Shown here piece after piece: positions 1 through 64,000 of a stretch of 64,000 bases of DNA (its first letter is position 1; each line of letters starts with the position of its first letter). The notes beneath the pieces were generated by a model. It worked only from the letters and a program-made list of their open reading frames with translations, did no database searches and had not been told where the DNA came from. A program made the position numbers and the translations under genes. Source of the DNA: Sphaerolaimus hirsutus (lineage: Eukaryota > Nematoda > Chromadorea > Monhysterida > Sphaerolaimidae); the NCBI GenBank assembly GCA_964036195.1, contig OZ038451.1, forward strand, positions 3,972,529 to 4,036,528, in the 5' to 3' direction.

Positions 1-1880
1 TTTTACCTTTCCGTTTTCCATTTTCCGGCAGCCAAAAAATTTTTACCTTTCCGTTTTCCGTTTTCCGGCAGCTGAAATTTTTTTACCTTTCCGTTTCCGT
101 TTTTCCGGCCCATTTTTCCGTTTTCCGGCTGAAAAATTTTTACCTTTCCGTTTCTGTTTTACCATGCCATTTTTTCATTTTCTGGCTCAATTTTCAGTTT
201 TCTGGCATTTTTCCATTGTTTTTCCAATCTGTATTCATCTTCAATTGGCTCATCCCATTGTGTTGTTTTTGTCTCTTGGAGCAGCATTGACAACTGGGAT
301 TTCAGGGTCAGTGAAACAGGTGCTGTGAACCCAATTGGGTCATATGCTGACACCAATAATATATTCAAGTTTCGTCTGGTTGGTGATGTGATGCTGTCAA
401 TTTGCAATTTTGGTGTTGATATTGCCAGCATGTCCGTTCGGTGATTTTATTTCATGCCCATTACTGCGACAATTTTATTCACCTTTGGACTCCTGTTGTT
501 TTCTGCTATTTCATTCATGACTGATCTGGAGTTTGACAGCCATTCCCTCATGTTCATAGAACATTGGTTAAATAAAGCTTTGACTTTGTAATATAGTTCT
601 AAAGCTTCAACTTCATTCGTGACACTCATGATGAAGTTATCAACATAAATGTTGTTTATTATCATCGCCAACTGGTTTCGTTCCCCTTCATTTTCTTCAT
701 ATTCATTCATGTTGTTTATTGTCACATTTAAATGGTATTTTATGACTGCTCCCAAAATTGCTGGGCTGCAGACAAGTCCAAACAGTACGCGTTTAAAACG
801 AAGTACTATTATATTATTTTCAGTTACTGGTTTTGAGGCATCTTTCAGCCGGAAAAATCGTGTGTAGTCTCTAGCTTGGTCATGCAATCCTTTTTGCAAA
901 AATGCCTTTTCAATATCGGCAATTAATGCTAGATTGCCTGCCCTGAACCTCAGGAGTAGGCCCAGTGCTAATGGTGTGGTAATTGGTCCTCTAAAAAGGC
1001 ACTCGTTGAAACTGGGCTTACCTGCCGACCCATTATACACGATTCTGCATGATGTTGATTTGCCCGGTGTGATTACTGGCTGGTGTGGCAGGTAATGAAT
1101 CCCCTTGTTGTCTGTTTTGTCATCACAGATCTCAATTATTCCCTTTTCTAGTTGGTTATCCATAACTTTCTGGTATTGTTTGTATAAGTTTGGATCTTTG
1201 TTGAATCTTCTTATCAGTGATTTAAACTGCACCAAGGCTTCTGCTTTTCCCGTGGGCAGGTCACTGATACTCTCTTTATATGGCCAGTCAATATAGTATT
1301 GTTTGTTGTTGTCATTGAATTTTATGCTATTTATTATCATCTCCTCTGCAATGTTGTCATCAATTGCATAGGAGTCATCAGTGATTCCCACTGCTTCTAG
1401 ACTTTGAAATTGTCGTAGTGTTTCCTTTCCTATGGCCACTATGGCTACTTTTTGATGATTTTTTGTTGGTTCAGTTAAGCTTGAACTATGAGTGAAGTTA
1501 CAGGCATGATCCATAGTTGCAGAATGTACAGCTACCACAATCAAAGCCAAACAGGCAAACCTGCATGCAGGTTTTCCTTCTGCAAATTTGTCTATTCCCA
1601 TGCTAATTTCACTTTATTTTTTTCCGTTTCCGTGAAAATTTTGCTTTCCGTTTTCCGTTTTCCGGCATTTCATTTTTCCGTTTTCCGTTTTCCGGCCGAC
1701 AATTTTTTTTTACCTTTCCGTTTTCCGTTTTCCGCTGAGTGAAATTTTTTTACCTTTCCGTTTTCCGTTTTCCGGCAGAAATTTTTTTTTTACCTTTCCG
1801 TTTTCCGTTTTCCGTAAAGTGAAAAAATTTTACCTTTCCGTTTTCCGATTTCCGTAAAAAAAATTTTTTGACACCCTACT
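1..1880 (-). mobile_element. Minisatellite-bearing hAT-like element carrying a BEL/Pao RT fragment (left copy, cut by window start)
   Basis: Both flanks are tandem arrays of a TTTTCCGTTTTCCGG-type unit with TTTTTACC spacers (1-180 and 1615-1866). Between them lies a reverse-strand RT-coding fragment. The right end reads TTGACACCCTA at about 1870-1880, the same end as the complete copy at 44003-45974, which lies in the opposite orientation. The left end falls outside the window, so no target duplication can be checked here. Confidence 0.75.
159..1601 (-). pseudogene. BEL/Pao-type retrotransposon reverse transcriptase fragment
   Basis: A 384-residue reverse-strand ORF (447-1601) is followed, after one stop, by a 90-residue ORF (159-431) that continues the same polyprotein. 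Visible motifs are a catalytic-region ADIEKAF, a LFGLVCSPAIL stretch and a YVDN box (the usual box is YVDD), then the post-RT AYDPIGFTAP segment that is diagnostic of BEL/Pao elements. No gag, protease, integrase or LTR is seen. The internal stop, the altered catalytic box and the missing domains mean it is a dead fragment. It is less decayed than the copy at 44332-45721. Confidence 0.8.
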
Positions 1881-2060
1881 CCAGCTATCTATCTATCCCC
1901 GGGGGCGCTCAGCTATCTATCTAACCTGAGGCTAAATTTTAGGCTACTATCCCTCGAGCCCCCCACCCCCTCAAATCGACCAGATATGTATCTCTCCAGA
2001 GCGATTATTTGAGAAATTTTGCCCCGATTTAGTGGTTGTTTGAGTGGGCAAAAGTTCAAT
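1881..2060. repeat. AGCTATCTATCTATCC-type interspersed repeat
   Basis: Tetranucleotide-like AGCTATCTATCTATCC blocks alternate with C-rich tracts. The same family recurs at about 8775-8935, 41405-41885 and 58430-58600. No coding potential. Confidence 0.6.
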
Positions 2061-2137
2061 AGACTACTATGACTTCAGCGGTACGTCACTCACAGTTATG
2101 CACTCATTTTTCTACCATAAAATTGTAGAACTAATTT

Positions 2138-2343
2138 TTTGGCGCTGGCGCTATTGGCGCTTGGCGCCATTACCCTCTGGCGCCATTGGCGCTTGGCGCT
2201 GAGGTTCAGAAAAGCGCCATGGCGCTTTTGGCGCTTGGCGCCATTTTGCTCTGGCGCCATTGGCGCTTGGCGCCGGGGTCAGAAAAGCGCCATGGCGCTT
2301 TTGGCGCTTGGCGCCGAAAGCCTGGCGCTTTTTCCATCACTAG
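2138..2343. repeat. GGCGCC-palindrome array, first block
   Basis: Dense alternation of GGCGCC, GGCGCTT and GCCATGGCGC, ending in GGCGCTTTTTCCATCACTA, the end shared by other GGCGCC elements in this window. The many overlapping open frames are by-products of the repeat. Confidence 0.7.
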
Positions 2344-2363
2344 CCGTGGGCCATGGTGCTGTC

Positions 2364-2694
2364 CAGTGATGTAAAAGCGCCATGGCGCTGGCGCTGGCGC
2401 TAGCGCCAAAGCAAAAAACGCCATGGCGCTTTTGGCGCTTGGCGCCTTTCTGCCGTGGCGCCATTGGCGCTTGGCGCCGTGAACGTCAAAAGCGCCATGG
2501 CGCTTTTGGCGCTTGGCGCTATAATGCTGTGGCGCCATTGGCGCTTGGCGCTACAGTCCGGAAAAGCGCCATGGCGCTTTTGGCGCCTGGCGCTAAAATC
2601 GTCTGGCGCCATTGGCGCCTGGCGCCACACATGGAAAAGCGCCATGGCGCTTTTGGCGCTTGGCACCAAAACTCTGGCGCTTTTCACATCACTA
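2364..2694. mobile_element. GGCGCC-rich hAT-like MITE
   Basis: The terminal inverted repeat is CAGTGATGTAAAAGCGCC on the left and GGCGCTTTTCACATCACTA on the right. The flanks GTGCTGTC (2356-2363) and GTGGTGTC (2695-2702) match at 7 of 8 positions, which suggests an 8-bp target duplication. The interior is GGCGCC palindromes. Confidence 0.65.
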
Positions 2695-2867
2695 GTGGTG
2701 TCACAAAAGTATGCCTAATGGTGTTAACGTTGAACACAAATGGTGCTTATCACTTACCTTATAAATTATAAGTAAAAAAAGTGAATTTGAAGGAAAGTCA
2801 AGTAACACTTGAATACATATAAGTTCAATACCTAGGTATTTATAACACAGACAACAACCACAGTAAT

Positions 2868-2977
2868 ATGCTGACTGTTGTGTTGAGAGTTCTGCTGCTG
2901 CTGAATATCATACACAACCTGGCAGCAAGGGACCCAAGCCAGTGCCCATGCTTTGATGAAGCAGATGTGATTGTCAG
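2868..2977 (+). CDS. Exon: signal peptide and CPCF motif
   Basis: The exon begins at an ATG. Residues 1-20 form a hydrophobic, Leu-rich signal peptide (VLRVLLLLNIIHNLAA), followed by a mature start with a CPCF-DEAD stretch. The donor CAG|GTGACC leaves phase 2. Confidence 0.65.
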
Positions 2978-5900
2978 GTGACCAGTCTGATCAAAATGTT
3001 CTGCCCAGCTACAACATTGCTTATTTTTTCACTAAATTTTTCAACGAAATATATTGACATTTCGCTTCTAAAACTTTGCTCACATCAGAAACCTAGCCTC
3101 ACAAAGGTAGATGAAACAATGCTCTGGTTTATGGAGCAGCGGAACCCACCAAAATCTGAAGGTTCTAATTCCATCAAAATAATCAATCATCAACCAAACA
3201 ACCCCATCACAAGGCATTAGTACTTTATGCAAATGTGCACAAAAGTGAAAACATATACATTTGAACAGACAGTACTATTAATTTACAGATGTTATAGACA
3301 TATTTTAAATAATTTTTGAGTGGTATAAATTATGGAAGTATAGGACAGTTTGATCAGACTCGGTACTACGCTGGGGGGTGTTTCCTGACCAGTGCGAATG
3401 GCAGGGGGCTGGTGAGCTGGGAGCAGGCGCGCGCAGCCCAGCACGGCCTGTCCCCCAGCTGCATGCGGCACTACGCACTCGCCTCCCTGCACGACCCCCA
3501 TCTCAGACTCGCCCTCGCGCATGCCATCAAGCAGGTGGCTTAACTTTTGTATGTGTCCTTTGTGACTAGTGTAAACTTTTTGTAAATTATGATGAGTAGC
3601 TTTAGTTGCAACAATTTGTTCTGGTAGGAGTGGGATAGTCCAGCATCTAAACACCTTCCCAGACAAGTTCACCACCCATTTTTTTATTTCACTTCGAATG
3701 CAATATCTCCGTCCATGGGGGTGTTATAAAGCTGAAACTTTGTATATATAAAGTTGTAAGACCTCTCTACTCCCCAACAACGGGGGAGGTGCGGCGACTC
3801 ACTACAGGGTGGGTCGCCCTATATGCAACAATTTTTTTGCCGTTTTTGGTGTCCCAAACAAGTTCACCACCCACTTGATTGGCTACACTACGAGAGCCAT
3901 ATCTCCAGCTGTGATGGCGGTATAAAGCTGAAATTTGGGGGATGTCTTGCCCACAACCCCCTTCACGATCCACCAGTGGGGCGGTTGTGAATGACCCAGT
4001 AAAGCATGGGTCACTGCATATAAAGTTCACCATTTTCTAAAAACAGCCCAAGTGTCCCAAAACAATTTCATCACCCAACTGCATTAAAAAAATGTAGCAA
4101 CAACATACCTAATATAAAAATCAATCGGGTTGGAACACTATTTCAGCCAAAAAAAATTTTTTCAGTAGGGCACCCACCCTTTCCCATAAACAGCCGACTG
4201 AAAATTTCACTTTAAACCAATTTTTTGTATCACACTTAAAAAGTTGGTTTACAAAGTTCACTAGGGGAAGGTCTAAGGTTCAAAGTTATGTAAACAACAT
4301 AACCTCTAAAATGCTTCCATAAGGAAATTTACTTGGGGTGAATTCTATGATGTCAAAATGATGTCATTTCAGGAAGAAAATTTCACAAAATTTTCACTTT
4401 TTCATTCACCCCAAATAAATTTTCTTATGGAAGCATTTTAGAGGTTATGTTGTTTACATCACTTTGAACCTTAGACCCTCCCCTAGTGAACTTTGTAAAC
4501 CAACTCTTTAAGTGTGATACAAAAAAATTGGTTTAAAGTGAAATTTTCAATCTGCTGTTTATGGGACAGGGTGGGTGCCCTACTGAAAAAATTTTAATGA
4601 GCAGAACTAGGGTTCATATCTGATTCAATTTTGTATCAGGTATGTTCTCACAACATTTTTTTATAATGCAGTTGGGTGGCGAACTTGTTTGGGACACTTG
4701 GGTTGTTCTTAAAAAAATTATCAAATTTATATGCAGTGACCCATGCTTGAGTGGGTCGTCAGCAGCAGCCCCACTGGTGTATTGTGAGGGGGGTTGTTGG
4801 CAAGACATCCCCCAAATTTCAGCTTTCTACCGCCCTCACAGCTGGAGATATAGCCTTCAAAGTGTAGCTAATCAAGTGGGTGGTGAACTTGCTTGGGACA
4901 CCAAAAACGCCACAAAATTTTTTTGCATATAGGGCGACCCACCCTGAAATCTGTTTTCGCCGCACCTCCCCCCAATTGTTGGGGAGTAAGGGGGTCTTAC
5001 AACTTAATATATACTAAGTTTCAGCCTTATAACACCCCCATGGACGGAGATATTGCATTCATAGTGAAATAAAAAAATGGGTGGTGAACTTGTCCGGGAA
5101 GGTGTTTACTAGCTATCTATCTTGCAGAAAAAGTTTCTGTTTTAGACATCTTAAAAATAACATACATAAATATATATCTTCAAAAATACCTATCTTATCT
5201 AAGCAGTTTGCCCTGCTACTATTTGTAAGCTATACTATGCGGACATCACACAAGTATGGAAACCTACCACAATACATCTCAACCAAAAGTGTACAGCTTT
5301 TTCATCATTATGTTTTCTTTTTACAATGGAATAATAAATTATGAAATGTATCACAAGATTTTTTTCAGTAAATTATGGTAGGTTTCTGCACATTCTTTGC
5401 TGTCCGCCTAGTATACCAATCTCAATTGAAGGGATGTTGCGATATATGGCAAAGAAATGTAATTGGTAAGTCATTAGCAACGATGGGAAAAACACAGAAA
5501 TTGAACACATAAACTCATTGAGTTTCTGTGTTTTTGTTTTACACAGAAAAACGGAAACTCAATATTTTTGAAAAACTCAAAACTCAGATGAGTTTTTTAT
5601 TGGAGATCACGGAAACACAGAAACACGGAAACACAGAAAAGTTTTTTGAGTTTTTCATTGGATTTGAGGAATTGAACCGTGTTGATTTGAACAAAGTAAG
5701 GAATGTTCACAAGTACATAAACAACAGATTCATACAAAGGGTCCAAATTGATTAACAAGTAACAAAATACAATTGGCATCTGTATTATCTGTATATCCCA
5801 CTGTATTTGGGTAAAAACTTGAGTTTTTATGAAAAAAAACTTGGGTTTTCACCAAAAACACAGAAATAAAAACAGAGTTACTCAAGTTTTTTTTTGTGAA

Positions 5901-8900
5901 AAAAACTCAAAACACAGGTATTCATTTTTGAAAAACTCAAAACACAGAAAGTGTTTTTTTCTGGAGAACTTACCCATCGTTGGTCATTAGAGCTATCAAT
6001 TTCTCAGCTGAATATCATGTGCTTTGCAGTAGGCCTTTTGACATCGATATACGGGTATAAAATATACAAAGTTTTTCACTTAAAAAAGATAGTCTTTATA
6101 GAGCTGGAGTTCCATTTAGCCACTTGTGCAGATATGCTAAAAAAAATTTTTAAACCCTGTTTTCTTTGAGTCGAATTGCCAAACATTATTATTTGACTGG
6201 TACGTTTTAACATAAGCTACTCTTTATGAAGATCTAGGAGTTTCTAGTGGGTTTAATGTATACTATATACTTTCTAGTTATTTATCATTACAGCATCTCA
6301 ATCTTTATGGAGTAAGATTGAGAGTAGCATTGGGGCACAATGGTAACCATTCATGGTATTGGCATGGAAACATTCACAGTGGCAGGGTGATTGCAGCCAA
6401 CAGCACTCTACAGGTCAGACACACCCTCCATGTGCATCATGACATCAATTCACGCAATTCATTTATTGCAGGATGACTTTGTCCTCTGGCCTGGCTTGGG
6501 CTCAACCCTATCGCATGAAAACCATTCCAGTGCAGTTGTTGATCTGGACACTGGCCAACTGCACACTGCGGATGTCAGTGAGGAGCTTCCGGCACTGTGG
6601 CAGGCACCAGGCGTTGCTCCGTACCAGATGGAGGTGCACTGCACAGATGGAGTGCATGGAAGTGGGGTGCATGATGAGCATGATGTCACACTGCAAATGG
6701 ACAGACCTGATTACAAGATTTGTGAGAGACACTGCTTCAAATCAAACTGCAGTTCATTTACAGTCAAAGATGTGAATGGTGGTGGATATGCATGCATTGC
6801 CCACCTGGGATACAGGTATACATTTACACACTTCTTACCCATCTGTTTTATTTACATTTCATCAAACAAAGGCATTATAACACCTGCAGTCCATCACATG
6901 TCCATCTGGAATCTATGGCTGGAGCACAGTTTTGCTCAAAGCATGATCTATCATTCGAGAAAGGTGATGCTCATAGATTTTACCAGTATTTTTCTGACAA
7001 ACAAAAAATTTCTTCAAAAAGTTCAGTATTAAGGTAAAGTAAATACCGTAAACTCTCTAATAATATGTGAGTTGTATTATACTTATCAGCAGATTTTTAA
7101 GGGTCACACTATTGGGGAGGTCACGTGAACAGAGAGTGTCACATTTTATTTTACCTCAATTCAACAACTCCACTGTCCACATAACTCAAGTGTGAGAATG
7201 ACATTGTAAAGCATTAATAAACAGTGAATAGTGGTGGCAGTCACGCGGCTGGCCTCCTGCGAACTGCCCATCACCTTGTCAGAAAGTGCGGAATCAGCAA
7301 CTTCTACAGATTGCAACATCGTTATGTCATTTTTTTATGTTTTTCTCAGGGGGTTGCATTGAAATGTAGAAAGTTTCTTGAATTTCACCATTAGAATTCT
7401 CATATGTCAGATGCTGAACTTTAAGCAGAGTAGGTTTTTAAAAATGCCTCAGGATTTCTCTTTCAGACGGAAGCATTTTCAATGGGAAGAGATGTAGCAT
7501 GAGCAGATAAAAAGATCACAATCATGGCTGATCATGATCAGCAGTACAAAACAATACAAATTTAAAAATTTTATATCTCATTTCTACGTGAAAATGAGCC
7601 GTTGAAATTGCATTTGGCACTTTGCCAGGACTTTGTTCTGTCTTTCAGGCTGATTTCTGGCCTTGGAAGACAGAATCTTTAAGCGTATCAACAAACACGT
7701 ATGGAGCAAGGTGATCACTGCATTTTTGTATAAAAAAATGCGTGGGCCATTTACACAGCCCACATGGCATTACAATGGGGGATGACCCAATAGCCTTTTA
7801 AACAACTCTTTTAGCTAACTTTTGTATGGGATGAATTCGCTGTTAAGTCAAGTGGGAGGCGTGACAAAACATTTTATAAAAATTTTGTGAATTTATGGAC
7901 CGAGGTAAACAGGGGTTTCTTTGCACACCTATGGTATGTTCTATTAGACAGGTATGGCATTCTATTAGCAGAAATATGGTAGTAAACTTGCTATATGCAA
8001 CAAAATTAGCTTTACCCTAGAAAACGTTCTTTGGGAATGGTAAAAAATGGGCACCAAAATGAGAAATTGGTCAGAAAATCAGCACTAGAAACATACTTTT
8101 TTCTACTGCAGTTCCATGCACAGGAAGCTTATTTGGTGCACAAGTGAAAGAAATACTGCAAAACATCTAAGGCTAGACATAAAATTAGGCCATATTTTTG
8201 CATGTGTACACATTCACACTGTTGATCAGCACACACATTCAAGATAATGACGATATTGTACCATACCATCAATTTCCAGAAATCCTTCATTATCCAGAAA
8301 CCTTACTGGCACAAAAACTGACATTCATTCACAGCACATACCTGGAATCAGTGTATCACATTACCATCAATACAACTACAAGCAAAAAATTTGCTTGCAA
8401 AAAAAAACAAATAGCAATGAGATTTTCTAGTATGCTTTAAATTGTCATAAGGTGTCCTTCTGATGCTTTTCCATAACTAAATTATTGATTCTTCTAATGT
8501 TGAAACATTACAATCCATGAAAAGAACCATCTTAAAAATGATTGACAAACTGGCTCCTCCAACAATTGAGCCTGAAAAATGACAAATAACTGATGTAAAA
8601 ATAAATGTGATAATTACTTCACTTCATATTTGTACAGTATTTTCGTAATGCAAATGAGGTGTCTACTTGTAAAAGTCAACAAGTCCAAAATATGAAAATT
8701 TTGCGTTAGGCCCAGAAACGTCATCTGTGGCTACTCCCGCACATTTTTCATAATTTTCCACAAATTTTTTGACCTCACATGCAGGGGTCTCCTAGGGGGG
8801 GCTGGGGGAGGGCTTCCCCCCCACCCAAATCCCCCAGCTATCTATTTATCTATTCCGGGTAAAATTTTTGGCTACTACCCCCAAAGACCCCCCCAAATCG

Positions 8901-41404: not shown

Positions 41405-41885
41405 AGTCAGGGGTAGGAAAGGGGGGGTTCCCCCCCCAAATCGCCCAGCTATCTATCTATTCCAGAGGCCGCTCAGCTATCTATCTATCCCGGAGGCAAA
41501 ATTTTGGGCTACTATCCCCTAAACCCCTCCCCCCAATCGGCCAGCTATCTACCTATCTGGAGCGATTTTTGGGAAACTATACCCTAATTTTCGCTCAAAA
41601 TCGCTATTTTCATACCTATATATAGATTTTCACCTCCAAAATCACTAGTTCGTGCATCTAACTGCCTATTTTGAGCTATTTTTAGTACTATATGTCCTTA
41701 TATACCCATTTTTAGCCATTTTTCACCTACTTTCAGCAATTTTTCTCCTTTTCCTCCCTTCTATGCCTATATATTGAGCCCCCGCGAACCCCCCCCCCAG
41801 AAAAATTTTCAGCTATCTATCCCTCCGGAGGAGTGATTTGCTATCTATCCAACACCCAGGAGGGCCGAAAACTAGAATACCCCTG
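41405..41885. repeat. AGCTATCTATCTATCC-type repeat
   Basis: Longest copy of this family in the window, with C-rich blocks and CTATTTTGAGCTATTTTTAG. Confidence 0.6.
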
Positions 41886-41949: not shown

Positions 41950-42213
41950 CAGGGTTGGCAAAATCTCAGAAGAAAAAAAATCAAATACAATTTTTATACA
42001 ATTTTACTACAATTTTAGTAAAAAGAATTTCACAAAAACTAATCCTGGTCACAAAGAATAAAAAATAAAAATAAAATAATAATAAAATGGAAAATTGAAG
42101 AATAAAAAAATAAAAATAAAATGGAAAATTGAAGAAAAAATAAAAATAAAATATAATTTATTTACAATTTTACTGCAGCTTCAGTAAAAATAATTTTACT
42201 AAAACCAACCCTG
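41950..42213. mobile_element. hAT-like MITE, CAGGGTTGGCAAAATC family
   Basis: Perfect 8-bp target duplication CTTGGCAG (41942-41949, 42214-42221); TIR CAGGGTTGG...CCAACCCTG; interior AAAATAAAAATAAAAT repeats. Confidence 0.9.
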
Positions 42214-43084: not shown

Positions 43085-43586
43085 TAGGGTTCAAACGGGA
43101 TCCCGATCCCCGATCCCGTGAAATTCCGGGATTTACCAGTCCCGATCCCGATCCTGAAACCCCAATCCTGATCCCAATCCCGAAATCTCAAAAATACCAA
43201 TCCCGATCCCGAAAGTTTTCAAATCCCGATCCCGATCCCGAGAAACTCCCAAGTCCGGGATCCCGATCCCGGAAAAATTAGTGGAAATTATAAAAAGTGA
43301 AATAATGACGTTTTTGCATGCAAAAAAAGTGGATGCAAACCCCCAGCGTCAATTTTATGCCACTTTTCTGGCATCCAACAGTGTTTTGAGACCTTTATGA
43401 ACAACTGTGAATGCCAGAAAAATGGCCAAAATTTCTATCCCTAGAACCCAATCCCGATCCCGGAAAAATGCCTATCCCAATCCCGATCCCGTGACCCCAA
43501 TCCCGGCCAATCCCGATCCCGAAATCTCAAAAAGTGAATCCCGATCCCGATCCTGATCCCGAAAAGTCAATCCCGTTTGAACCCTA
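43085..43586. mobile_element. TCCCGA-repeat hAT-like MITE (full-length)
   Basis: Perfect 8-bp target duplication CTCATGTA (43077-43084, 43587-43594); ends TAGGGTTCAAACGGGATCCC and TCCCGTTTGAACCCTA; (ATCCCG)n-rich arms around a short unique core. Confidence 0.9.
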
Positions 43587-47743: not shown

Positions 47744-47773
47744 CAAAGAAACACTAAAAAGTCTCCCAAAAAG

Positions 47774-52900: not shown

Positions 52901-55900
52901 TCAATTTGTGTGTGAAATTGCGCGCTTGCGCGCAAAAATTTTGCAAAATACCTAGTGCTTAGTACTAAAAATTTCGGCCGTAAAAAAAAACATTTCGGAC
53001 GTCATGTTGTTGTTTTTTAAAAAACGTTTGTTTTGTTTTTTAAAAAACGTTTTAAAAAAAACATCGGCCAACCCTAGTCCAAACCCGATCCCGATTCCGA
53101 AAAACCAATCCCGATCCCGAAAAGCCAAACCTGCTTGAACCCTCCCATGCCATGACCCGACAAGTAGCAAACTCAAACCCGACCACACCAACCCGCGACC
53201 GCATCACTTTTTCCCGCTCGAACTCGCCCACCCTGGGGTTGGTCATTCTTGACACTTCCCCGCCCCTGCGACGACCGGTCGTCGTTATCCGGCTCTTCCG
53301 CGTCGATATTTTGATCGGCGTGCTCCGTTTTAAGAACTGAGCCTGGCAAAGTGGGGTGGGAAAATTAGTGATAATTGTTGTTTTTGGAAAAACTATCAAT
53401 TCCCTAGGTTTTCAATTCACTGAAGAGTTTTCTGGCAAAAAAAGCACGAATTTGATCGAAATTGTAAAAATCCACCATGGGGAACGTGACTTTCACATAT
53501 CGTATTTACACACTGGAATTTCATTATGTAGGTACAAGAGTAGCATAAAAATAATCTCTTTTATAAATGCTTCCAGAGTGCACCACGGGTGCAAAGTGAA
53601 AAGTAACACGAGTCTAAGCTTGAAACCACAGTCCACGTGAAAAAATGGTAAACTGACAAGTATCCGATTGTTGGGCCGCCTGATCACCCACGATCACGAA
53701 AGTGTGCCGCACGACGCGTTTGCGCTGCGAGTGAAAATCCGCTGTTTTGGAACCTAAGCTATATCTGGGGCCAGTTCCGCAAGTGGCAAGTACTTTACTA
53801 TTTACCTTTCTCAATTTACTCTCCAATTAGAATTTAGTTTCTGATTATCATTTTTCTTTCTTTTTAACTTTACTCTTTACTTTACCACTTGCGGAACTGG
53901 CCCCTGCGCACGTACACTTAAGTCGGTAAATGTGCTCGATATATCAATCCGAGACGATATCGTCGATAATCGACGCCTCATCAAACTTCGACTATCGACG
54001 CCAATTATCGATACGAAAAAGTGCTCTATATTCAATTCACACACTAAAAAGTCATCCGATCTTTCAACATAAAAACTTCAACCAGTCAAAAGAGTCAAAC
54101 CTGTATTCTAGGTCCAGCCAGGGCACCCCTGGTGACTCGGGGGTTGCTGCCATCTGCAGGCGGCACCCTGGCAACGACCCTGGCTGAATTCGGCCCCACG
54201 CGACCCCCATGGAGGTAAACTGTCGAATTGCTACGTCTGTAATGGGGTTTTGATACGCGTTGATCAAATAATGGCCTGTAAAATGGAAGGTAGCGGCCTA
54301 TAAAGTGTCTGAAATAATTTGTCGAGTGCCAGGTAGGGTTAGTGTCGTAATGATCGACAATATCTGGTTTTTGACGTGAAAGGAATCTTTCGTTCGATAA
54401 TAAAACATTCGAACATTTCCATCAAAAAAGCACCGACCGACTAGGGTTTTAACGGGATCCCGATCCCAACTCCGAATCCAGAAATATTTCGGCATTTTGT
54501 GGATCCCGATCCCGAAAGCCCAATCCCGATCCGATTCCCGGACACTCAAAAAACCAACCGATTCCGAGAACTCAAACCCGTTTGAACCCTACAACCGACC
54601 TGCCATCGCCCATCTGCACTATATTAGAGTGTCTTCCAGCGAGTCGCAACCTGCCCTGCGGCGCGCCCGATCCCCTACTACTATTCTGCGCGCCGATCCG
54701 CACCGAGGGCAGCGTGCCGGCGCCGATGTACGCACTCGTTCCCGTGGCGGCCGGAAACTGACTCGGACCGGGTACCCGGTACACACCGGCCGCCGTGTAA
54801 GGCGTGGCCGCGTTCGCGTCGCTTCCCGATTGGTTCAAACTACGCTGTTGCTGCCGCTGCGCGATCGTCAGCGAATGGATGTCTGCGGCGGAGGGAAATT
54901 GGTTTGTGCGGGCGTGCCGTAGGCAGTAGCATGTAACCCGCTAGTCATGTAGACCCGCCAGTCACGTATTTGAGGGGAACCCGTTTGTGAACCCGTATGC
55001 GGTATCCTCCGTACCGTGCTAACTCCCCTAAAATACATGACTGACTGGTCTACATGACTGGCGGGTTTACAGGACTAGGGTGTCAACAAAAACTTTTTTA
55101 CGGAAAACGGAAACGGAAAAAAATTTGCACTTGCCGGAAACCGGAAACGGAATTTTTTTGCACCTGCCGGAAAACACAAAAATGAGAAGTCGGAAAACGG
55201 AAACGGCAAAATTTGTTGAAATTCTGCCGGAAACGGTAAAAAAAATTTGCACAAATTTATCTGGAAATGAAAAAATTGCATAAATTTTGCTCGAAACAGA
55301 ATAAATTAACATAAATAAGAACCTGTATGCATCTTTACCAGTGTGGCTGAAACGTAAAGTAGGAGAAACAGACAAATGACCCGGAAAAAGGGAAAAAAGC
55401 GGAAAAAAAAGAAGAAGAAAAAGCGGAAACGGAAAAAAATAAGCAGCCGGAAAACGGAAACGGAAAAAAATTTGCCTGCGGAAAGCGGAAACGGAAAGTT
55501 AATCATCCATTTTCAGCTATTTCCTCCAAATTTACCCGGAAACGCCCAAACAAGGCACTCAAGGACGTACGCAGGAGGGGGGCGGGGGGGGGGGGCGGCC
55601 GCCCCCCCCCGTTCCCGGGTCGGACAGAAAAATTTGCCAGAAATGGCACTTTTCTGAGGCGAACTGGTAGGCACTTTAAAAATTTTTTTGCGCGCAAGCG
55701 CGCAAATCTCCACCCCATTCTTTAATATGTCTTTTCAAGCGTCAAATTGCACTAGAAAAGTGTCCAACAGTGCCAAAAGCGGACCTAGTACCATATATAG
55801 GTATAAATAGATACCTATATGGTAGACGTTGGCGCCAACGCCAACGCCAATACTGCCATGGCGCTGGCGCCTACAAATGGCGCCAGCGCCATGGCTCTAT

Positions 55901-58900
55901 TCCTTTACTATAGGACAAAATTTTAGGGGGGGGGCGCCGCCCCCCCCGTCCGCCGGGCTCCGTATACAATCCGCCCCCCCCCGCTCAAAAATCCTGCGTA
56001 CGTCCCTGTAGGCACTCAAAATTCACAAATCCACCCAACCCGATACAGTGCACACAGTAACTCACCTTTGGGGCCGACCCTGGTCTGCCTGGTGGGCCCC
56101 CAGCCGCCAGTACGCGCGCAGTGTCTGTGCCCCCCGCTCGTGTCCATGCTCAGCGGCGGCGACGGCGCAGAGATGATCTGCTTGTCGTAGATCGCTGGCA
56201 GAGGGCCCGGCGACATGCTGAGGGGGGGGGGGGTGGTCTTGAACTTTTGTTAGTTTTGTGGGTGACAGGGAAGAAAGTGCTGAAATAAGGGTGTTCCAGT
56301 TGTCCGATGGGGGTTGCCCTGTTTCGGCTATATACCGTATTTCCTTGAATAATTCCGCCGGGGAATTATTATTTCGTCAACATTTTTGAAGGTTGAGCTA
56401 TTCGAGGGGGGAAGTATTCAAGGGGGGATTAATATTGCATCAAATTTTCATGCAGGTTTCTATCAAATCACCTCACGAAAGGTGCTTTATTAACACAAAA
56501 ACATGCCATTTTTGTTAAAAATTGAACACAAATTTATTAAATAACTTGGAGAATAAATTGGAGAATTATCCAATGGGGGTTGTTTTTTTCCAAACTCGTC
56601 TTACAGGGAAGAATTATTCAAGAGGGGGGATTGTTCAAAGTTCAAGAACTATTCAAACAGAAGGTATTTCCTTCGACCAAAGTGAAAATCTTACTGTAAG
56701 ATTCTTATACTGATCTCCACGCTAATTATTTTTCCAGTAGCTTCAACCCCCAGAGGACGGATTATCCAAGCGAAAGTGCCCAATCTCCAACACAACCCCC
56801 AACCACCCCCACCTACCCAGTGTGCCTGGCGCTGGGCTGCGGCCCCACCTGGCCCCCCTCGGCACCCCACTGCGCGGCGGCCGCGTGACCCCCCGCAGCC
56901 GCGGGCCGCGTCTGCGTGTGCCGCAACTGCGCCGCCAGCCAGGGGGTGCCCGCCGCGCCGCCGGTGGTCGCCTGCTGCCGCCCCTGGCCCGACTGCTGCT
57001 GCTGCTGCGTCCTGCCGCGCGGCGAGTAGTAGGGCCGGCGCGGCGGCGGCTGCGCCAACGGCAACTGCACGCCGCCGCGCGACACGTTCCGCCCGGCCGC
57101 CGTTATGGGCGGCGCGGCCGGTTTGCCCTGCCGCTTGCCCGCCCGGTAGGGCAGCGTGCGCGCGCAGCCCTGGTCCTGCGGCCGGTCGGGCGTCGATCCC
57201 ATCTGGGCGGGGGTGTTATAGGTCGCGCGTAGATTTCATATTAGAAAAATCAGGGCTGATTTAAATATTCAATTAATTATTGAAAAACCATTATTCAAGA
57301 AAATACATTTAACATTTAACGTTTTATATATTCCAGGGGTTTTTGCAGAGATTTAATTATATTTATTTTGTGAGAAGAAAGTATAAAAATATATGATTAA
57401 TATTTTCTGCGTTTTAGAGACATTCGATTGTATTTTATTTTTGAGAGATTTTCTGAGATTATATTTGATTACATTTTCAGGGAAAAAAACATCATTTTCG
57501 AACGCTAGTCATGCGGTTGTCTAAAGTTGTCCAAATCACACTGATTGAAACATGAAAACAATAAACAAATCTCCGACACCAGCAAAAAAACACTGGAAAA
57601 AAAGAAGAGAGGAACAAATTTCAAGTCCGTCAATCAAATTGTGTTGCGCCCACACACAAAATTTTTGTTGTGTTATTTAGTTGACATTCAGTTGACAAAA
57701 AAAATTTATGTCAACTAAACGCATGTTAGACCGTTGTGCCAAATCTCTGTTTAAAACACGCACCCTGCCGGCGAAATGCGTGGCCGCGGGCTGAACCTGT
57801 CGCTGGGCGTGCTGCCAAGCGGGCTGGACCTGCGGCGGGGCCGGCTGCAAAACTTGACGAATTTCGCCGCTTTGCGTGATGGCGCCCGATTCTTGCAGCT
57901 GCCGCAGCTCCTCCTCGCTCAGCGGAATGTACTGCGGAATGTATCCAATGAATAATTGCATCAAAAATATATAAATGGAATATCAACTAGGGTTCATATT
58001 GGACTGGGCACGCGGAATCCGGTGTCGATGCTGCTCTCACATTTGTGCGAATAGGGATGGGAAAATGGAAGTTTTTTCACGACCCCGTTTAAAAAAACCG
58101 TTTTTTGCTCCAAATGCTCCAAAATGCTCCAAAAATTCGGAACGAGAAACGGGAACACGACATAGATAGCTCTACGGTTAGGAATTGTGGCAATCCCGCT
58201 CGACTGCAAAATACCCGACACTCCAGTCAAAATCTCAACTGACTTCATAATCGACGCCATCGGCTGCGGTCTCCACGAGTACGGTGTCGCCGACGTTCTC
58301 GAAGGGCACGGCCACGTTCTTCAGGCGGATCTCGTCGGCGATGCGCGGCTGCTTGGCCAGCACTCCGCGGGTATTCTGCAAGGGGAACAGGGATAGTGCA
58401 GGGTCTCGAATGAGGTGTTGAGTGGGGGGTAACCCCTATCTAACCCATATCTATCTGGAGATAGATTTTAGAAAATTTACCAAAACTTTTGCTCAAAATC
58501 GCTAACTTTCACACCGTTTCATAGATTTTCACATTCAAAATGACTCGTTCATGTGCCTTGTTGCCTATTTTGCGTCCAAAGAAAATCACAATAAATGCCA
58601 CTGACGAAATTGGCACAAAGTGGTGATTAGGGATGGTATTGATTTTTTAACTAATTTTTTTAATCTGATATGTTTTCAATTGATATTTTTTAAATCAAGG
58701 CGTTTAAAAAAAATTTCCAACCCTAGCGGTGATTTCATAACACCGTAACATCCATTGCCGTACCTGATTGAGCATGGTGCCCATGGGCGAGCGGTCGGCG
58801 CGGTACGCCGCACTGGCGCCTGGAACCGGCTGCGGCAGACTGTACGCAGCGTGCTGAGGTGTTTGCACTGGAGACTGCGAATTGAGAGAGCGTTAAAGTG

Positions 58901-61229
58901 GATCCGGTTGTTGAACAAATGCCAGGAACCGACTGAAACGACCATCAACTGAACTACGAAATCCAGGTAAACCGCCCTGTTACAACAACGGTAAACACGT
59001 AGTTACGGTAAAGGCAGTAACACCAAACTAAAAAATTCCACCAAACCTCAGTTATTCACAGGCACCGTACCGTAACCGTCCCCCCACCCTCGCCCCTCCC
59101 CCCAAAAAAAATCACCAAGTCTCACCGGAAACCTCTTCTGCGCCACTCTACTATTAGCAGCGCCGAACGCAAAAGTAGGCGCGTGCGACGCGTGCACCGC
59201 CTGGCGCACGTCCGGCCGCCGGGGGCCGGCTGCCGCGTGCCGCTGCTGCAGCGACGTCGCCTGCACGTGCGCCGGCGGCGGCGGCACGACGACTTGTTGG
59301 GGCGGCGGCGGCGGCGGCGCTTGTTGTTGTTGTTGCTGCTGCTCGTTGGCCAGGCGGCGACGGAATTCCGATACGGTCAGCACTTCGGTCACGTTGCCTG
59401 GTCGAAGGGGGTCAGTGCGCGTTTGCTTGATACTAGGGATGGACAAATAGACGGTCCATAGTATTGACGTGATTTTAAACCGTTTTTTGACAAATGTCGT
59501 CGTGTCACAATCTGAAAAGTTACCTATCACAACACTTGCCAATGGGCACTCTTTATTAACATTCTTACTCGCCTCGATCAATGATAATTTCAATCTGCCG
59601 GGGTCAACAAAGGACCCCATTTGCACCCCAACAGACCCCCCACCCAAAAGGGGGTCACCCAAACGGACCGGCCTCGTCCTGCAGGTGGATCATGTCCTCG
59701 TCGTTCAGCTGCACGTTGGCCAGGTCGTCCTCGTTCACGTACAGCACGTCGCCGGACTCGCCCCCGGGGCTAAAAAAAGTGAACACTTGGCCACTATTGG
59801 AATTAGACCATTTTTTATGAACACCACTACACGTTGTAATGTTCAAACTTAAGTTCAGACTTATGTTCAAACAAAGGAAACTGAAGCGATTTACATCCCA
59901 CAGCCAATCTAACTGGCGTATATCAAACAATAAAAAACTATCAACCGTCTTACGATGATAGGAATTCAATTTCAAATATATGAATCTTTGAACAAATAGT
60001 TTTCCAGTGTTAAAAATGTGAACAGCACAAAAAAAAATTAATACAAACCCGGGAGGCGGTTGGTCAGCGGCGCTGCCATCGAATTCAGATGTCGCCGGCT
60101 GTTCAGCAGAAATGTCCATTTTTGTTCGCTTGGCCATATCCTGTATGGATTGTACAATGTTGGTACGATGCCAGGGAAATATAAATTATGTTATGAGAAA
60201 AAAATTTTGTTGAAAATATACGATATAAGTGACTCAATTAAAATACACTGAATAAATTAAAATACAACATACAAGTAAACTTGCCTTATCAATCATCACC
60301 CAACTAATTCACTTATGTAATTGGGCCCAGGTACCAAACCTATGTTTCCCAAATTCCAGTGCATTTTACAGAACTGTCAACACTTTGCTTGACATTTGAC
60401 ATTTTGCAGGCCATTTCACAAAGTTGGCACTTGAAAATTTCCCTTGCCATTTTGCCCACAACCATCACACCCCCCAACCGACCTGCGCGCCGAAAGTCTC
60501 ACTCCTCTCCACAACGACCGCATCGGCCACATCGGCATAATTGACAAAGTGCAGTTGCGCCGCTCCAGCCGCGGCCACATCCGGCTGCGCGGCCGCTACG
60601 GGCCCGGCGACGGGCGCGGCGCTTTGCGGTCCCGGTTTCGACTCGGTACCGGTCTCGGTAAGCGGGTTGTTCGGGTCGCCGGAGGCGGGCGGCAGGCCCG
60701 CGTCCGAGGTGGTCACCCCCGCTGCTGCCACCGCCGCATCCACCAGCATCTGGGCGGAGTCGAGTTGGGATTGGGGCGACTAAGGTGAGAGCGGGATCGA
60801 CTTTTCGGGAGTGGGATTGGAGGTTTTTTAGATTTAGGGATCGGGATCGAGTCTTAGGGATCGGGATTGGGTCTTCGGGATCGGGAACGCAAAATCCCGG
60901 GATATTTCGGAATTCGGGATCCCGTTTGGACCCTAGGGGTGACAGATGGGAAATGGGACATTTTGGCTTGAAGTTTCGATCAGAGCACAGAGCAGAGAAA
61001 GCGGAAACGGAGAAAATATGTAGAAATGCAAAAATTTAGCACGCGGAACGATCCGACGCGCCGCAAAATCTGGGAAAAAGCTAGCACCCCAGCCCCGGCG
61101 CACCTCCAAATTGGCGGTGCTTCCATCTGGCCCAGTGCCAGCGGCGAGGTCCCCCTCCTCCTTGACGCCATTTTCCGAAGTTTCAGCGGCGTTTTCAGCC
61201 GACAAACTCGAACTATCAATGTCGGCCAT
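47774..61229 (-). CDS. 20-exon F-box/leucine-rich-repeat protein, KDM2/FBXL-like C-terminus, long disordered N-terminus
   Basis: Exons, 5' to 3' on the minus strand: 61229-61104, 60749-60483, 60140-60049, 59769-59669, 59397-59126, 58874-58764, 58375-58244, 57931-57764, 57202-56817, 56217-56066, 54882-54600, 54236-54127, 53753-53658, 53336-53232, 51205-51075, 50600-50462, 49971-49808, 48825-48670, 48404-48283, 47912-47774. All are AG/GT bounded, every phase matches, and the total is 3252 nt (1083 residues). The N-terminus is acidic, then Ala/Pro/Gln-rich with a Q7-P6 tract near residue 220. The F-box is at about 816-862 and the LRRs at 868-1060. F-box proteins link substrates to SCF ubiquitin ligases; KDM2 proteins act on chromatin. 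No JmjC, CXXC or PHD is visible. The start is the first ATG of the frame at the exon (MADIDSSS); an upstream exon cannot be excluded. Confidence 0.8.
47913..48282. repeat. Palindromic CTGTAAAATG repeat that forms an entire intron
   Basis: The 370-nt intron between exons 19 and 20 is almost wholly a palindrome of CTGTAAAATGTCAAATGTC units, with a centre near 48087. The repeat's TTTTACAG supplies the 3' splice site. Related repeats lie at about 60354-60440, 62063-62235 and 63175-63440. Confidence 0.75.
48863..49239. mobile_element. CATCCCACATCTAAACCC inverted-repeat element in intron 17
   Basis: Ends are CATCCCACATCTAAACCC and its complement (GGGTTTAGATGTGGGATG), with the short unit doubled at both ends. 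Confidence 0.7.
49302..49761. mobile_element. Palindromic GGGTACCGTATACCCTCG element in intron 17
   Basis: Left ATGGGTACCGTATACCCTCG, right CGAGGGTATACGGTACCCAT; arms mirrored through about 49530, including GTTCTTGGGGCAGTTTT. Confidence 0.8.
50066..50247. mobile_element. TCCCGA-family hAT-like MITE in intron 16
   Basis: TAAGGTTCAAACGGG...CCCGTTTGAACCCTA; flanks AAACATGG and GAACATGG match at 7 of 8. Confidence 0.75.
50462..51205 (-). CDS. Exons 15-16: F-box
   Basis: Exon 15 ends with WHERQQQVLWTLVFDRLGD and NCML; exon 16 begins VCRAWLDCV, then STLWHHIDL and AAINAKRPAKLTL. The V-C-R-x-W, L-W-x-x-I-D-L and R-P-x-x-L positions are those of the KDM2-type F-box. The intron splits the F-box at L|V in phase 0. 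Confidence 0.85.
51516..52300. mobile_element. hAT-like MITE, TAGGGTGGCAGACGGTACGG family
   Basis: Perfect 8-bp target duplication ATCCCGAG (51508-51515, 52301-52308); ends TAGGGTGGCAGA and TCTGCCACCCTA; GGTACGGTACGGTAAATT arrays in the same orientation at both ends; central GCGCGCTTGCGCGCAA. Confidence 0.92.
52392..53076. mobile_element. hAT-like MITE, TAGGGTTGGCCGATG family, reverse orientation
   Basis: Perfect 8-bp target duplication GTCCAAAC (52384-52391, 53077-53084); ends TAGGGTAGGAAAAAAAACG and CATCGGCCAACCCTA. Reversed near-copy of 19582-20272. Confidence 0.92.
53767..53912. repeat. Short inverted-repeat element
   Basis: GGGGCCAGTTCCGCAAGTGG mirrored by CCACTTGCGGAACTGGCCCC in intron 12; related to 46711-46893. 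Confidence 0.7.
54442..54591. mobile_element. TCCCGA-family hAT-like MITE abutting a 5' splice site
   Basis: TAGGGTTTTAACGGGATCCC...CCCGTTTGAACCCTA. Flanks CGACCGAC (54434-54441) and CAACCGAC (54592-54599) match at 7 of 8. The right flank is the first 8 nt of intron 11. Confidence 0.8.
54932..55073. repeat. Inverted-repeat element, GTCATGTAGACCCGCCAGTC
   Basis: AGTCATGTAGACCCGCCAGT at the left is mirrored by ACTGGTCTACATGACTGGCG at the right. Confidence 0.65.
55074..55500. mobile_element. TTTTCCG-minisatellite hAT-like element without RT insert
   Basis: Starts TAGGGTGTCAACAAAAAC and runs on GGAAAACGGAAACGG repeats; right end eroded. Related to 44003-45974 and 42470-43040. Confidence 0.65.
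55562..56010. mobile_element. hAT-like MITE, CAGGGCCGTATCCAGG family
   Basis: Perfect 8-bp flanks GGCACTCA (55554-55561, 56011-56018); ends AGGACGTACGCAGGAGG and CCTGCGTACGTCCCTGTA; contains GCGCGCAAGCGCGCAAA, a GGCGCC block and poly-G/poly-C arms. Lies in intron 10. Confidence 0.8.
56066..61229 (-). CDS. Exons 1-10: low-complexity N-terminal half
   Basis: Acidic start (NGVKEEGDLAAG) and an Ala/Pro exon ending NYADVADAVVVERSETFGAQ. Then come a basic AKRTK patch, an acidic DVLYVNEDDLANVQLNDED segment, poly-Gln/poly-Pro, EIRLKNVAVPFENVGD, SEEELRQLQESGAITQSG, and an Arg/Gly/Gln-rich exon with YYSPRGRTQQQQQ. No known fold is recognised. The alternating short acidic-hydrophobic motifs in a disordered background suggest protein-interaction motifs of a nuclear regulator (inference). 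Confidence 0.65.
56333..56660. repeat. Degenerate ACCGTATTTCCTTGAATAATT hairpin
   Basis: TACCGTATTTCCTTGAATAA followed by G-rich TTCGAGGGGGGAAG tracts; right end unclear. Confidence 0.45.
57203..57763 (-). other. Intron 8 of the F-box gene
   Basis: AT-rich, with GTTGACATTCAGTTGAC near its 3' side in the plus sense; no other feature. Confidence 0.5.
58430..58600. repeat. AGCTATCTATC-type repeat fragment
   Basis: TATCTATCTGGAGATAGATTTT and the trailing CACATTCAAAATGACTCG text match the family at 41405-41885; lies in intron 6. Confidence 0.5.
60781..60935. mobile_element. TCCCGA-family hAT-like MITE in intron 1
   Basis: TAAGGTGAGAGCGGGATCG...GGGATCCCGTTTGGACCCTA; flanks GGGGCGAC and GGGGTGAC match at 7 of 8. 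Confidence 0.75.
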
Positions 61230-62062: not shown

Positions 62063-62235
62063 AGGCGGTCCAGCACCCTGTAAAGTGTAAAGTCAAGTGT
62101 CAAATGTCATATAAAATGTGAATTCAAAAATATATAAAAATGAGTTTAGTACTGAACTTTTGACATTTGCATGACATTTTACAAATATGTTTGACATTTT
62201 ACACTTGACTTAACATTTTACCGCCCCGTGTTGCA
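62063..62235. repeat. CTGTAAAATG-family palindrome
   Basis: CACCCTGTAAAGTGTAAAGT mirrored by ACTTGACTTAACATTTTAC; related to the intron palindrome at 47913-48282. Confidence 0.6.
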
Positions 62236-62635
62236 CTAAAAATAGGTACGCTCACCACATTTTTCTCAAGCATTCAGATCTTTAGCTCGAATAGACCCTT
62301 CAATAAACCCCCAGTCTCAGCTTTGTGGAAACAAAATGAATCCCGATCAAAGTAGACATTGTGTATCACACATAAATCAATGTCTGATTCAGATTGGAAT
62401 TATTCGAGGTAAAACCGTAAAATCTAACGGCACCAAATAAACACAAAAATGCCCGAAAAAAAATAAATAAATACAGCACGAATTATCCATTATGCATTGC
62501 ACAGTATATTTATGTGGATGCGAACTATCAGTGGTGCAAAAGGTATCTGACACTTATCTTTAGCAACATAAATAGGTACGTTAGATTCATTTTGCACTGT
62601 AAATAATCAACATTCGAAAGTAATGCACCGGCAAT

Positions 62636-63076
62636 CAGGGCCGTATCCAGGGGGGGGGGGGGGGCGGGGGGGGCTGCAGCCCCCCCCCCTCCCGGGGCGA
62701 GACCAAAAAGTGACCGGAAAATGCAATTTTTTAACGTCAGCGTAAAAAATTTTGCGCGCAAGCGCGCATTCTTCACCAGACATAAGGTCTTATCATCGGA
62801 TTTGCTCCATGTGGCCACAAATCATTATAAACACACTCAATGTTGTGTTTTTTTGCTGTTTTGTATGTATATTTACATACATATACAGCATTCCATGGCG
62901 CTGACGCCAATGCCAATGGCGCCATGGCGTGGCGCCCACTAATGGCGCCAGCGCCATGGCGCCATTCCGCCACTATGTGGCTAAAAGTTTAGGGGGGGGG
63001 GGGCTGAGCCCCCCCCCCTCGCCGGCCTCCGTAAACAAGCAGCCCCCCCCGCTCAAAAATCCTGGATACGTCCCTG
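62636..63076. mobile_element. hAT-like MITE, CAGGGCCGTATCCAGG family (complete)
   Basis: Perfect 8-bp target duplication CCGGCAAT (62628-62635, 63077-63084); ends CAGGGCCGTATCCAGG and CCTGGATACGTCCCTG; contains GCGCGCAAGCGCGC, a GGCGCC block and CTGAGCCCCCC. Confidence 0.92.
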
Positions 63077-63174
63077 CCGGCAATATAAGCCAATTCGGAA
63101 AGTTCTCAGCCAGCTCAGCGAAAAGCGACAACTTCACTCGGAGCCATATCCGCAAAAAGATAAGAGCGAAATTG

Positions 63175-63440
63175 GCTATTTTCCATGGAATTTTTACACG
63201 ACTTAAGAGACTTTGCCAGACATTTGACATTTTACAAGGACTTTAAAAGTCAGCCAGCGATCCCTGGTATGGTCCACAAAAAGTGTTTTCATTATTAGAC
63301 ACTTTGAATGACATTTCAAATTTTATAGGCCATTTTACATGGCTTTTGACACTTTGCAGGACATTTCACTGGGCATTTCACATGACTTTTGACACTTCAC
63401 GTGACATTTGAAATTTTACAGGACCTGGCGTTGGCACCGG
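63175..63440. repeat. CTGTAAAATG-family repeat
   Basis: Several ACATTTGACATTTTACA and GACTTTTGACACTT units, all in one orientation. Confidence 0.6.
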
Positions 63441-63526
63441 ATCCCTATTGTGCATAGTCCCATTTACAACTTGTTCAAACATTCCGAAAAAGCCAACTTA
63501 TTTACCTTTTACTTACGTATTAGTAC

Positions 63527-63668
63527 ATACCGCAAATTCTTGAGAACTCCCCAGCGTATAACAAATGAATCAATAATAACCCCCTCCCCCATCACTTGAA
63601 TAACTCCCCGCACGACGAAAATATCACTGCACGGGGGGGGGGGGGTTACTCAAGAATATGCAAATCTC
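63527..63668. repeat. Degenerate C/G-armed hairpin
   Basis: CATACCGCAAATTCTTGAGA mirrored by TACTCAAGAATATGCAAAT around a G12 tract. Confidence 0.5.
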
Positions 63669-64000
63669 AGTATAAATTTTATATGCTTCACATGTTTCTT
63701 GAAAACAAACCATTAGCAGATTTTCTCACGGAGCAAAACAGACTGGCGTAGAATTATTATTTGGAGGATAGTTAATAGAGCACCAATTTTGATTTACATA
63801 AATAAATACACACAATCAATATTTACAAAAATTCAGATTGTCATTATACCTAAATAATTTATACATTGAGCTGTTAATGGAATACAAAAGCGAAGAGAAA
63901 TTACCGACGGGAATAGAGTTGCAACAATTTAAAAACAGTCGCATTTTTAAGCATTTCAAATAGCTGTATCACAAAGTAATATCGTTGCAAATCTAAACGG
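63669..64000. other. Window end, nothing recognised
   Basis: AT-rich; no exon or repeat seen. Confidence 0.4.

Follow-up and report, generated by a model that had tools for sequence, protein, structure and literature searches.

The window, a 64,000-nucleotide stretch of the genome of the nematode Sphaerolaimus hirsutus (contig OZ038451.1, positions 3,972,529 to 4,036,528), holds a series of elements flanked by 8-bp duplications and carrying short repeats at their ends. With a probability of roughly 0.73, these are non-autonomous hAT elements of the Ac group, including miniature inverted-repeat transposable elements (MITEs), whose repeat arrays are putative transposase-binding sites with a recognition motif that has changed in a concerted manner. 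The new observation is that subfamilies with CAGAGTTG ends retain their end scaffold while the motif switches at nearly every site, in both orientations. Among the titles and opening abstract lines returned from open-access literature, none concerned a concerted motif change in hAT ends, subscription papers lying outside that search.

The CAGAGTTG-end subfamilies have a scaffold in common and carry the motif as AAACGTA, AAGCGTA or AAGTGTA. Sixteen sites were aligned between loci in these three states (L012, L014 and L018, respectively), two of them inverted, and changes were scored in the motif’s own direction. From AAACGTA to AAGTGTA, 15 sites change from AC to GT and one from AG to GT, while from AAACGTA to AAGCGTA 15 change from AC to GC and one from AG to GT. 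Between AAGCGTA and AAGTGTA, 15 sites change from GC to GT (13 direct, 2 inverted) and one is unchanged. The outermost motif copy, which lies in or beside the terminal inverted repeat (TIR), switches as well. Scaffold columns differ at 38 of 276 positions for L012-L018, 39 of 277 for L012-L014 and 26 of 278 for L014-L018, and within subfamilies only 1-2 of 34 motif columns differ. These motif columns were defined on the alignment itself, and one of the marked pairs turned out to be false, there being no motif at that place in the other subfamilies; as the column counts include this pair, our interpretation rests on the site-by-site counts. Within a subfamily, the element bodies can be aligned over 139-633 bp; from one subfamily to another, just 26-41-bp matches are found. 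Twelve copies of the AAGCGTA family contain 171 GCGT, 6 stray GTGT, 12 GTGT that all occupy the same inverted site, and 1 GCAT; twelve copies of the AAGTGTA family contain 169 GTGT, 8 GCGT and 3 GCAT.

The motif states were then compared across the genome (348 Mb, 762 contigs) with patterns for the element ends, the details being taken from the first 100 matches listed for each pattern, all at the start of contig C1. A triplet pattern that left A/G and C/T free at three neighbouring sites gave 3944 matches, against 0 for a reversed-pattern control. Among the matches listed (first 100 of 3944), 39 triplets read AC-AC-AC, 25 GC-GC-GC and 22 GT-GT-GT, with 14 mixed; the 86 homogeneous triplets compare with 12.1 expected under site independence. 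A right-end pattern, covering the site next to the TIR and the following inverted site, returned 4480 matches (control 0), and the two sites agree in 88 of 100 among the matches listed. The two ends are in the same state in 70 of the 72 CAGAGTTG elements that have both of them among the matches listed, and in these 72 the left array lies at most 1800 bp from the right end (limit 3200). This comparison used 91 of the 100 listed triplet rows and all 100 listed right-end rows, with the states copied by hand and the left state taken as the majority of three sites. Two other classes behave in a comparable way. Ends of the TAGGGTTCAAAC class match 5715 times (control 0), and among the matches listed (first 100 of 5715) they are followed by GGGATCCCG in 68 cases, GATATATCG in 27 and other sequences in 5. 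For TAGTGATGNAAA ends there are 10713 matches (control 1), followed, among the matches listed (first 100 of 10713), by AGCGCC in 76, GGCACC in 16, AGCACC in 4, GGCGCC in 2 and CGCGCC in 2; the counts for both classes (68/27/5 and 76/16/8) were made by eye. Motif states are discrete in all three end classes, and the ends of the second and third point to a change of this kind, the scaffold being retained.

Motif differences could also arise by mutation, through slippage and CpG decay and with no selection on recognition. Such a process accommodates the step from AAGCGTA to AAGTGTA, which is a C-to-T change at a CpG, the mixtures of stray GCGT and GTGT and of ACGT and ATGT among copies, and the loss of 8 of the 20 scaffold CpG cells of four AAGTGTA rows. 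Decay, however, predicts changes on both CpG strands, whereas all 15 changes between L014 and L018 are C to T on the motif strand, at direct and inverted sites alike. If both strands were equally likely and the sites independent, this outcome would have a probability of ~6e-5; among the 15 changes in L029, a single one is C to G. The step from AAACGTA to AAGCGTA involves no CpG change, and slippage cannot account for changes at inverted copies or at sites whose contexts differ. As the sole cause of the switch, CpG decay was rejected because of the one-strand bias and because it cannot produce the step from AAACGTA to AAGCGTA. Decay may contribute, given that the scaffold CpGs are only partly kept, but a purely mutational origin of the motif states is quite improbable.

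Alternatively, the subfamilies may stem from separate invasions by hATs that had diverged elsewhere, in which case recognition would still differ but no switch would have occurred in this lineage. This is in keeping with an AAGTGTA relic (L054) and an AAACGTA relic (L012) of the transposase that are just 59% identical over 69 aligned residues, and with bodies that barely align between subfamilies. On the other hand, the end scaffold is still ~86-91% identical, and mixed-state copies are present at low frequency (14 of 100 among the matches listed), although neither point settles where the switch happened. We consider separate invasions possible, if on the whole unlikely. A further explanation is that a host factor or small-RNA silencing reading the array, and not the transposase, selected the motif change. 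High-copy arrays are good targets for silencing. However, the concomitant switch of the outermost motif copy in or next to the TIR is a better fit to recognition by a transposase, and such repeats bind the transposase in Ac and Hermes (PMC3260210, PMC10368747; here and below, papers are cited for the parts covered). Selection by the host is, in our estimate, improbable.

Relics of the transposases themselves were traced through the hAT C-terminal domain (PF05699), which matches at 28 places genome-wide; 20 loci were fetched that cover 22 of these, and 21 were examined. Seventeen of the 21 lie inside elements with a matching duplication, some with one mismatch. Seven of the enclosed relics belong to TAGGGTGTCAA elements, two to CAGAGTTG, three to TAGGGTTCAAAC with the TATCGA motif, four to TAACGATGGC and one to a TAGTGATG-type element, which has a TAGGGTGTCAA end as well and a relic similar to those of the TAGGGTGTCAA lineage. 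At further loci with CAGAGTTG-type relics, six of nine lie within closed elements. Since several end classes thus enclose C-terminal relics of their own lineage, many of the elements are deletion derivatives. The relics of the TAGGGTGTCAA, CAGAGTTG, TAGGGTTCAAAC and TAACGATGGC elements fall into different sequence groups. The CAGAGTTG relic of L012 shares 35-39% identity with three TAACGATGGC relics, 38% with two TAGGGTGTCAA relics and 32% with another TAGGGTGTCAA relic, and no match to it was obtained from two further TAGGGTGTCAA loci and three TATCGA-type loci. As judged from these sequences, related but separate transposase lineages served the end classes. The open frames of the C-terminal domain are all partial, with at most 148 amino acids at the 28 places, and a search for the autonomous hAT that the original prediction had proposed to look for, made through domain matches, yielded no intact transposase.

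That prediction had attributed all families to one transposase, a view that finds no support in the relics. As a rival explanation, one transposase of relaxed specificity would move all families, and the repeats would have expanded independently and be functionally meaningless. The 8-bp duplications and a YANNG start are indeed common to all classes, and maize Ds1, which has little beyond the TIRs in common with Ac, can transpose in response to Ac (PMC3260210). Against this stand the different relic lineages of the end classes, ends that match between classes over only ~5-8 bp and diverge further inward, and motif sites that shift jointly while the scaffold is mostly retained. We regard a single transposase as very improbable. 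Independent expansion of the repeats, also proposed earlier, is likewise not the best reading, as the CAGAGTTG class keeps its site arrangement while the motif letters change together.

Arrays are present in most of the elements. In 44 of 46 elements of at least 300 bp, the top hexamer has at least 8 copies in the two terminal 150-bp stretches, as against 14 of 400 control stretches taken from outside the detected elements, and the predicted family-specific short repeat just inside the ends is thereby borne out. The family-specific motif is 6-7 bp long and present in a handful to ~40 copies within the terminal 150-250 bp. It had also been proposed that the bodies are minisatellites; the repeats are real but are located mainly at the ends on both sides, and most of the body sequence is unique. 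Ordinary minisatellites were rejected as an explanation, as the arrays lie inside duplication-flanked elements and mostly at both ends. The CA(A/G)GG..GTATCCAGG class is an exception to the arrays at both ends, as its GCGCCA is one-sided. For CGGAAA, ACGGTA, TCCCGA, TATCGA and AAGTGTA with its sister motifs, the copies are mostly on the same strand at the two ends, as illustrated by CGGAAA in L009 (L+17 L-0 R+17 R-0) and ACGGTA in 51516-52300 (L+10 L-0 R+10 R-0). AAACTC (in 5478-5982), the near-palindromic GGCGCC and AAACGTTT have mixed strands or are unable to show a strand bias. In the TAGGGTTCAAAC class, the first copy beside the left TIR has the opposite orientation and makes a palindrome together with the copy that follows (CGGGATCCCG or CGATATATCG). 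Between the arrays of a 96%-identical pair of CGGAAA elements lies a reverse-transcriptase fragment (RVT_1, E 0.00018, below the curated cut-off; at 450-1613 and ~44400-45700), perhaps BEL/Pao-like, so that this family has captured unrelated filler in the manner of Ds2/Pack-type elements.

Several composite arrangements were also encountered. Double elements with the order array-body-array-body-array between a single set of ends lie at L041, with a 7-of-8 duplication, and at L017:2698-5885, with three ATATCG clusters and two transposase relics. Recombination between two same-strand arrays may explain such double elements. At L042, two GGTACGG-family copies are adjacent with one shared-flank copy between them, an arrangement that fits insertion of one at the duplication of the other.

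Assignment to the hAT superfamily relies on the target duplications and the ends. All 11 elements listed in the original prediction have exact 8-bp direct repeats directly outside their ends, as claimed. The element at 28981-31132 is nested in a larger GGCGCC-array element at 28533-32117, which has a duplication of its own. The (T/C)AGGGT ends that the prediction described for many elements are present on both sides in 6 of the 11; 10571-10899 and 62636-63076 have ends of another class. In the window, ends of the form [CT]A[AG][AG]G[TC] give 8 pairs with an exact 8-bp duplication, compared with a mean of 0.375 (maximum 2) in 40 offset controls. A TIR scan of the window without the end motif yielded 40 candidates, inside the offset-control range of 21-62, so that the end motif is required for the signal. 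Over a survey set of 262,019 bp, consisting of the window and 20 ten-kb loci around hAT domain matches, eight listed end types with matching TIRs had exact duplications of 4, 5, 6, 7, 8, 9 and 10 bp in 4, 1, 0, 0, 48, 0 and 0 cases, a result in line with the predicted length of 8 bp. The loosest ends ([CT]ANNG, at most one mismatch) gave 78 candidates in the same set compared with 5-19 at ten offset controls, from which it follows that part of the 74 retained loose-end candidates is due to chance. Among fetched copies, exact duplications flank 11 of 12 in the family of 33464-34239, 11 of 12 in the AAGCGTA sister family and 8 of 9 single copies in the family of 51516-52300. The duplications fit the pattern nTnnnnAn, with T2/A7 at 55% (69 symmetrised) or 61% (57 of the main classes), and a central TA is present in 5 of the 69 symmetrised duplications; nTnnnnAn is the target pattern of the Ac group (PMC8961557, PMC10368747). 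The TIRs are short and imperfect and have the YANNG form of the hAT superfamily, a form that served also as a search criterion. Duplication length, YANNG ends and target pattern together bear out the hAT-like identity and the relatedness of the ends. The elements are short, lack intact coding sequence and occur in multiple copies each with its own duplication, as MITEs do.

Because subfamilies that share a scaffold differ at nearly all motif sites, direct and inverted and in varied contexts, descent alone is insufficient to explain the pattern, and a protein that reads the motif would be its simplest cause. The motif is probably the DNA site of the N-terminal (BED-type) domain of the transposase, and the array would then act as a multivalent landing platform. 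A concerted motif change would record a shift in transposase recognition followed by amplification of matching copies, with each subfamily mobilised mainly by its own transposase. The BED domain of Hermes accepts both AAGT and AAGC (PMC10368747), and an intermediate transposase with similar two-letter tolerance might let sites change singly before the code narrows. It is conceivable, though we think it unlikely, that switching of the recognition code is a means of escape, in which autonomous hATs repeatedly changed the motif and nearly all of their ~16 end sites. If true, such an escape would free lineages from thousands of MITEs competing for the old transposase, new MITEs would arise from the new code, and the genome would preserve a fossil series of switches in at least three end classes.

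Several points weigh against concerted change of a recognition motif. Domain searches across the genome linked no intact transposase or DNA-binding domain to any family: zf-BED has 8 matches, which are unlinked to element ends, and PF14372 and PF10683 have none in this genome but none in 14 control genomes either, so that their absence is undemonstrated. The switch is also incomplete, as one inverted site reads GTGT in the AAGCGTA and AAGTGTA sets alike, and GCGT is retained at one of two positions in 8 of 12 AAGTGTA copies (5 + 3). Of the five scaffold CpGs of L025, four AAGTGTA rows retain 3, 3, 2 and 4 (12 of 20 cells). For the second and third classes, the switch rests on gapped whole-end alignments and end patterns and not on a site count, and homogeneity across copies is partly a matter of descent from few masters. 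Finally, a tolerance like that of Hermes might allow a single protein to bind two of the three motif states, which weakens the specificity reading of AAGCGTA versus AAGTGTA. As a separate observation, six of the eight zf-BED matches cluster within 23 kb (G000:C1:7466186-7488779), where they may represent host genes in a cluster or remnants of transposons.

Known systems offer parallels for much of this organization. In maize, the Ac transposase binds AAACGG hexamers, and Ac/Ds (Ds2, Ds-like) resemble the present elements in 8-bp duplications, short TIRs, subterminal repeats, internal deletions and foreign filler (PMC3260210). The CGGAAAACGG arrays include the literal AAACGG of the Ac repeats. 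Unlike Ac/Ds, the elements described here have long, largely same-strand arrays in several families and several motif states on a kept scaffold, and genome-wide domain searches did not find an autonomous partner. In Hermes of the house fly, the BED site AAG(T/C) occurs 17 times in one end and 14 times in the other, STR2-STR7 being antisense on the left end and STR1-STR5 sense on the right end (PMC10368747); in our reading of that paper’s convention, this places the sites on one strand at both ends, as here. The nTnnnnAn target, the many short sites at both ends and a quasi-palindromic first pair at one end are further likenesses (PMC10368747), and AAGCGTA and AAGTGTA contain the Hermes-type AAGC and AAGT. 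Where Hermes tolerates T or C, each subfamily here has one letter at nearly all sites. DNA-binding domains of hAT elements have varied preferences, mostly for CGG/CGC, which match their own subterminal regions, and related domains of the CGGBP type have very different specificities; in that study, however, proteins were measured, as opposed to genomic sites alone here (PMC8097297). The hAT-derived MITEs of Atlantic cod have internal tandem repeats and a hAT-derived simple sequence repeat, and the parts covered of the source describe no scaffold-keeping motif switch (PMC12368964). Tetris, a foldback element of Drosophila virilis, is a DNA transposon tied to an emerging satellite; it is likened here by its description, from which hAT status is not evident (PMC4079207).

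How a transposase and its many binding sites can change jointly is an unsolved problem, since every intermediate would be expected to function poorly. In the present case, thousands of copies in one genome differ mainly in the motif letters and keep the site arrangement, and as AAACGTA, AAGCGTA and AAGTGTA are one step apart, the path is readable and testable. The arrays also provide ready site sets for decoding the specificity of BED fingers. For annotators, they imply that arrays labelled minisatellites may be functional transposon ends.

Eighteen placed elements comprise 14,158 bases, or 22% of the window; five have a one-mismatch duplication, and the edge of the window truncates one. Coordinates and supporting features are given below.

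Table. Elements located in the window, with their repeat arrays and flanking duplications.
Element	Coordinates	Strand	Evidence
Second copy of CGGAAA-array element with reverse-transcriptase filler, cut by window edge	1..1878	-	96% identity with 44003-45879 across 1886 aligned positions; ends ..GACACCCTA at 1878
YAGTGATG-end element, GCGCCA arrays	2364..2694		TIRs, one-mismatch duplication
CAACGATGGG-end MITE, AAACTCA/CACAGAAA repeats	5478..5982		Exact 8-bp duplication GTCATTAG
CA(A/G)GG..GTATCCAGG-class MITE (different end class)	10571..10899		Exact duplication ATTATTAC
TAGGGTTGG-end MITE, AAACGTTT repeats, same family as 52392-53076	19582..20272	-	Exact duplication TGCACAAC
TAGTGATGGAA-end element, GGCGCC arrays at both ends, host of nested 28981-31132	28533..32117	+	Exact duplication CTCATGAG
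CAGAGTTG-class element, AAACGTA state	28981..31132	-	Exact duplication CTAATAAC; alignment, motif counts
CAGAGTTG-class MITE, AAGTGTA state; 40 places scored genome-wide including itself	33464..34239	+	Exact duplication GGCTGGGG
CAGGGG-end element, AGATAG repeats (another end class)	41408..41885		Exact duplication ACACTAGT
CAGGGTTGG-end MITE, CAATTTTACT repeats	41950..42213		Exact duplication CTTGGCAG
TAGGGTTCAAAC-class MITE, ATCCCG state	43085..43586	+	Exact duplication CTCATGTA, 16-bp perfect TIR
TAGGGTGTCAA-class element, same-strand CGGAAAACGG arrays at both ends around captured reverse-transcriptase fragment	44003..45974	+	Exact duplication GTCCGAAC; CGGAAA L+18 L-0 R+20 R-0; RVT_1 in sister copy
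Short TAGGGTTCAAAC-class element, almost only TCCCGA repeats	50066..50247	-	One-mismatch duplication
TAGGGTGGCAGA-end MITE, same-strand GGTACGGTAAATT arrays at both ends; at least 44 matches genome-wide	51516..52300	+	Exact duplication ATCCCGAG
TAGGGTTGG-end MITE, AAACGTTT repeats	52392..53076	+	Exact duplication GTCCAAAC
Short TAGGGTT-class element, TCCCGA repeats	54442..54591	+	One-mismatch duplication
CAAGGACGTA..CAGG-class MITE, GCGCCA on one side	55560..56008		One-mismatch duplication
Short TAGGGTCCAAAC-class element, TCCCGA repeats	60781..60935	-	One-mismatch duplication
CAGGGCCGTATCCAGG-class MITE, GCGCCA on one side only	62636..63076		Exact duplication CCGGCAAT

A separate end class, CA(A/G)GG..GTA..CAGG, is formed by 10571-10899, 55560-56008 and 62636-63076, two of which have one-sided GCGCCA; its ends are perhaps reminiscent of Tip100/Zaphod-type hATs. 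A possible element of 3.6 kb, with CATAGCTGAAATCG ends and one mismatch in its duplication, is located at 14871-18522 of the window, with inner inverted repeats at 16735-18372. The region at 21401-24420 is a 3-kb block of nested tandem arrays (a 30-bp unit repeated 26 times, and units of 115/116 bp and 439 bp), and no hAT-type element was called there. At 34932-39571 lies an element resembling long interspersed nuclear elements, with long open frames, one of which, of 1015 amino acids, contains a PF14529 endonuclease domain.

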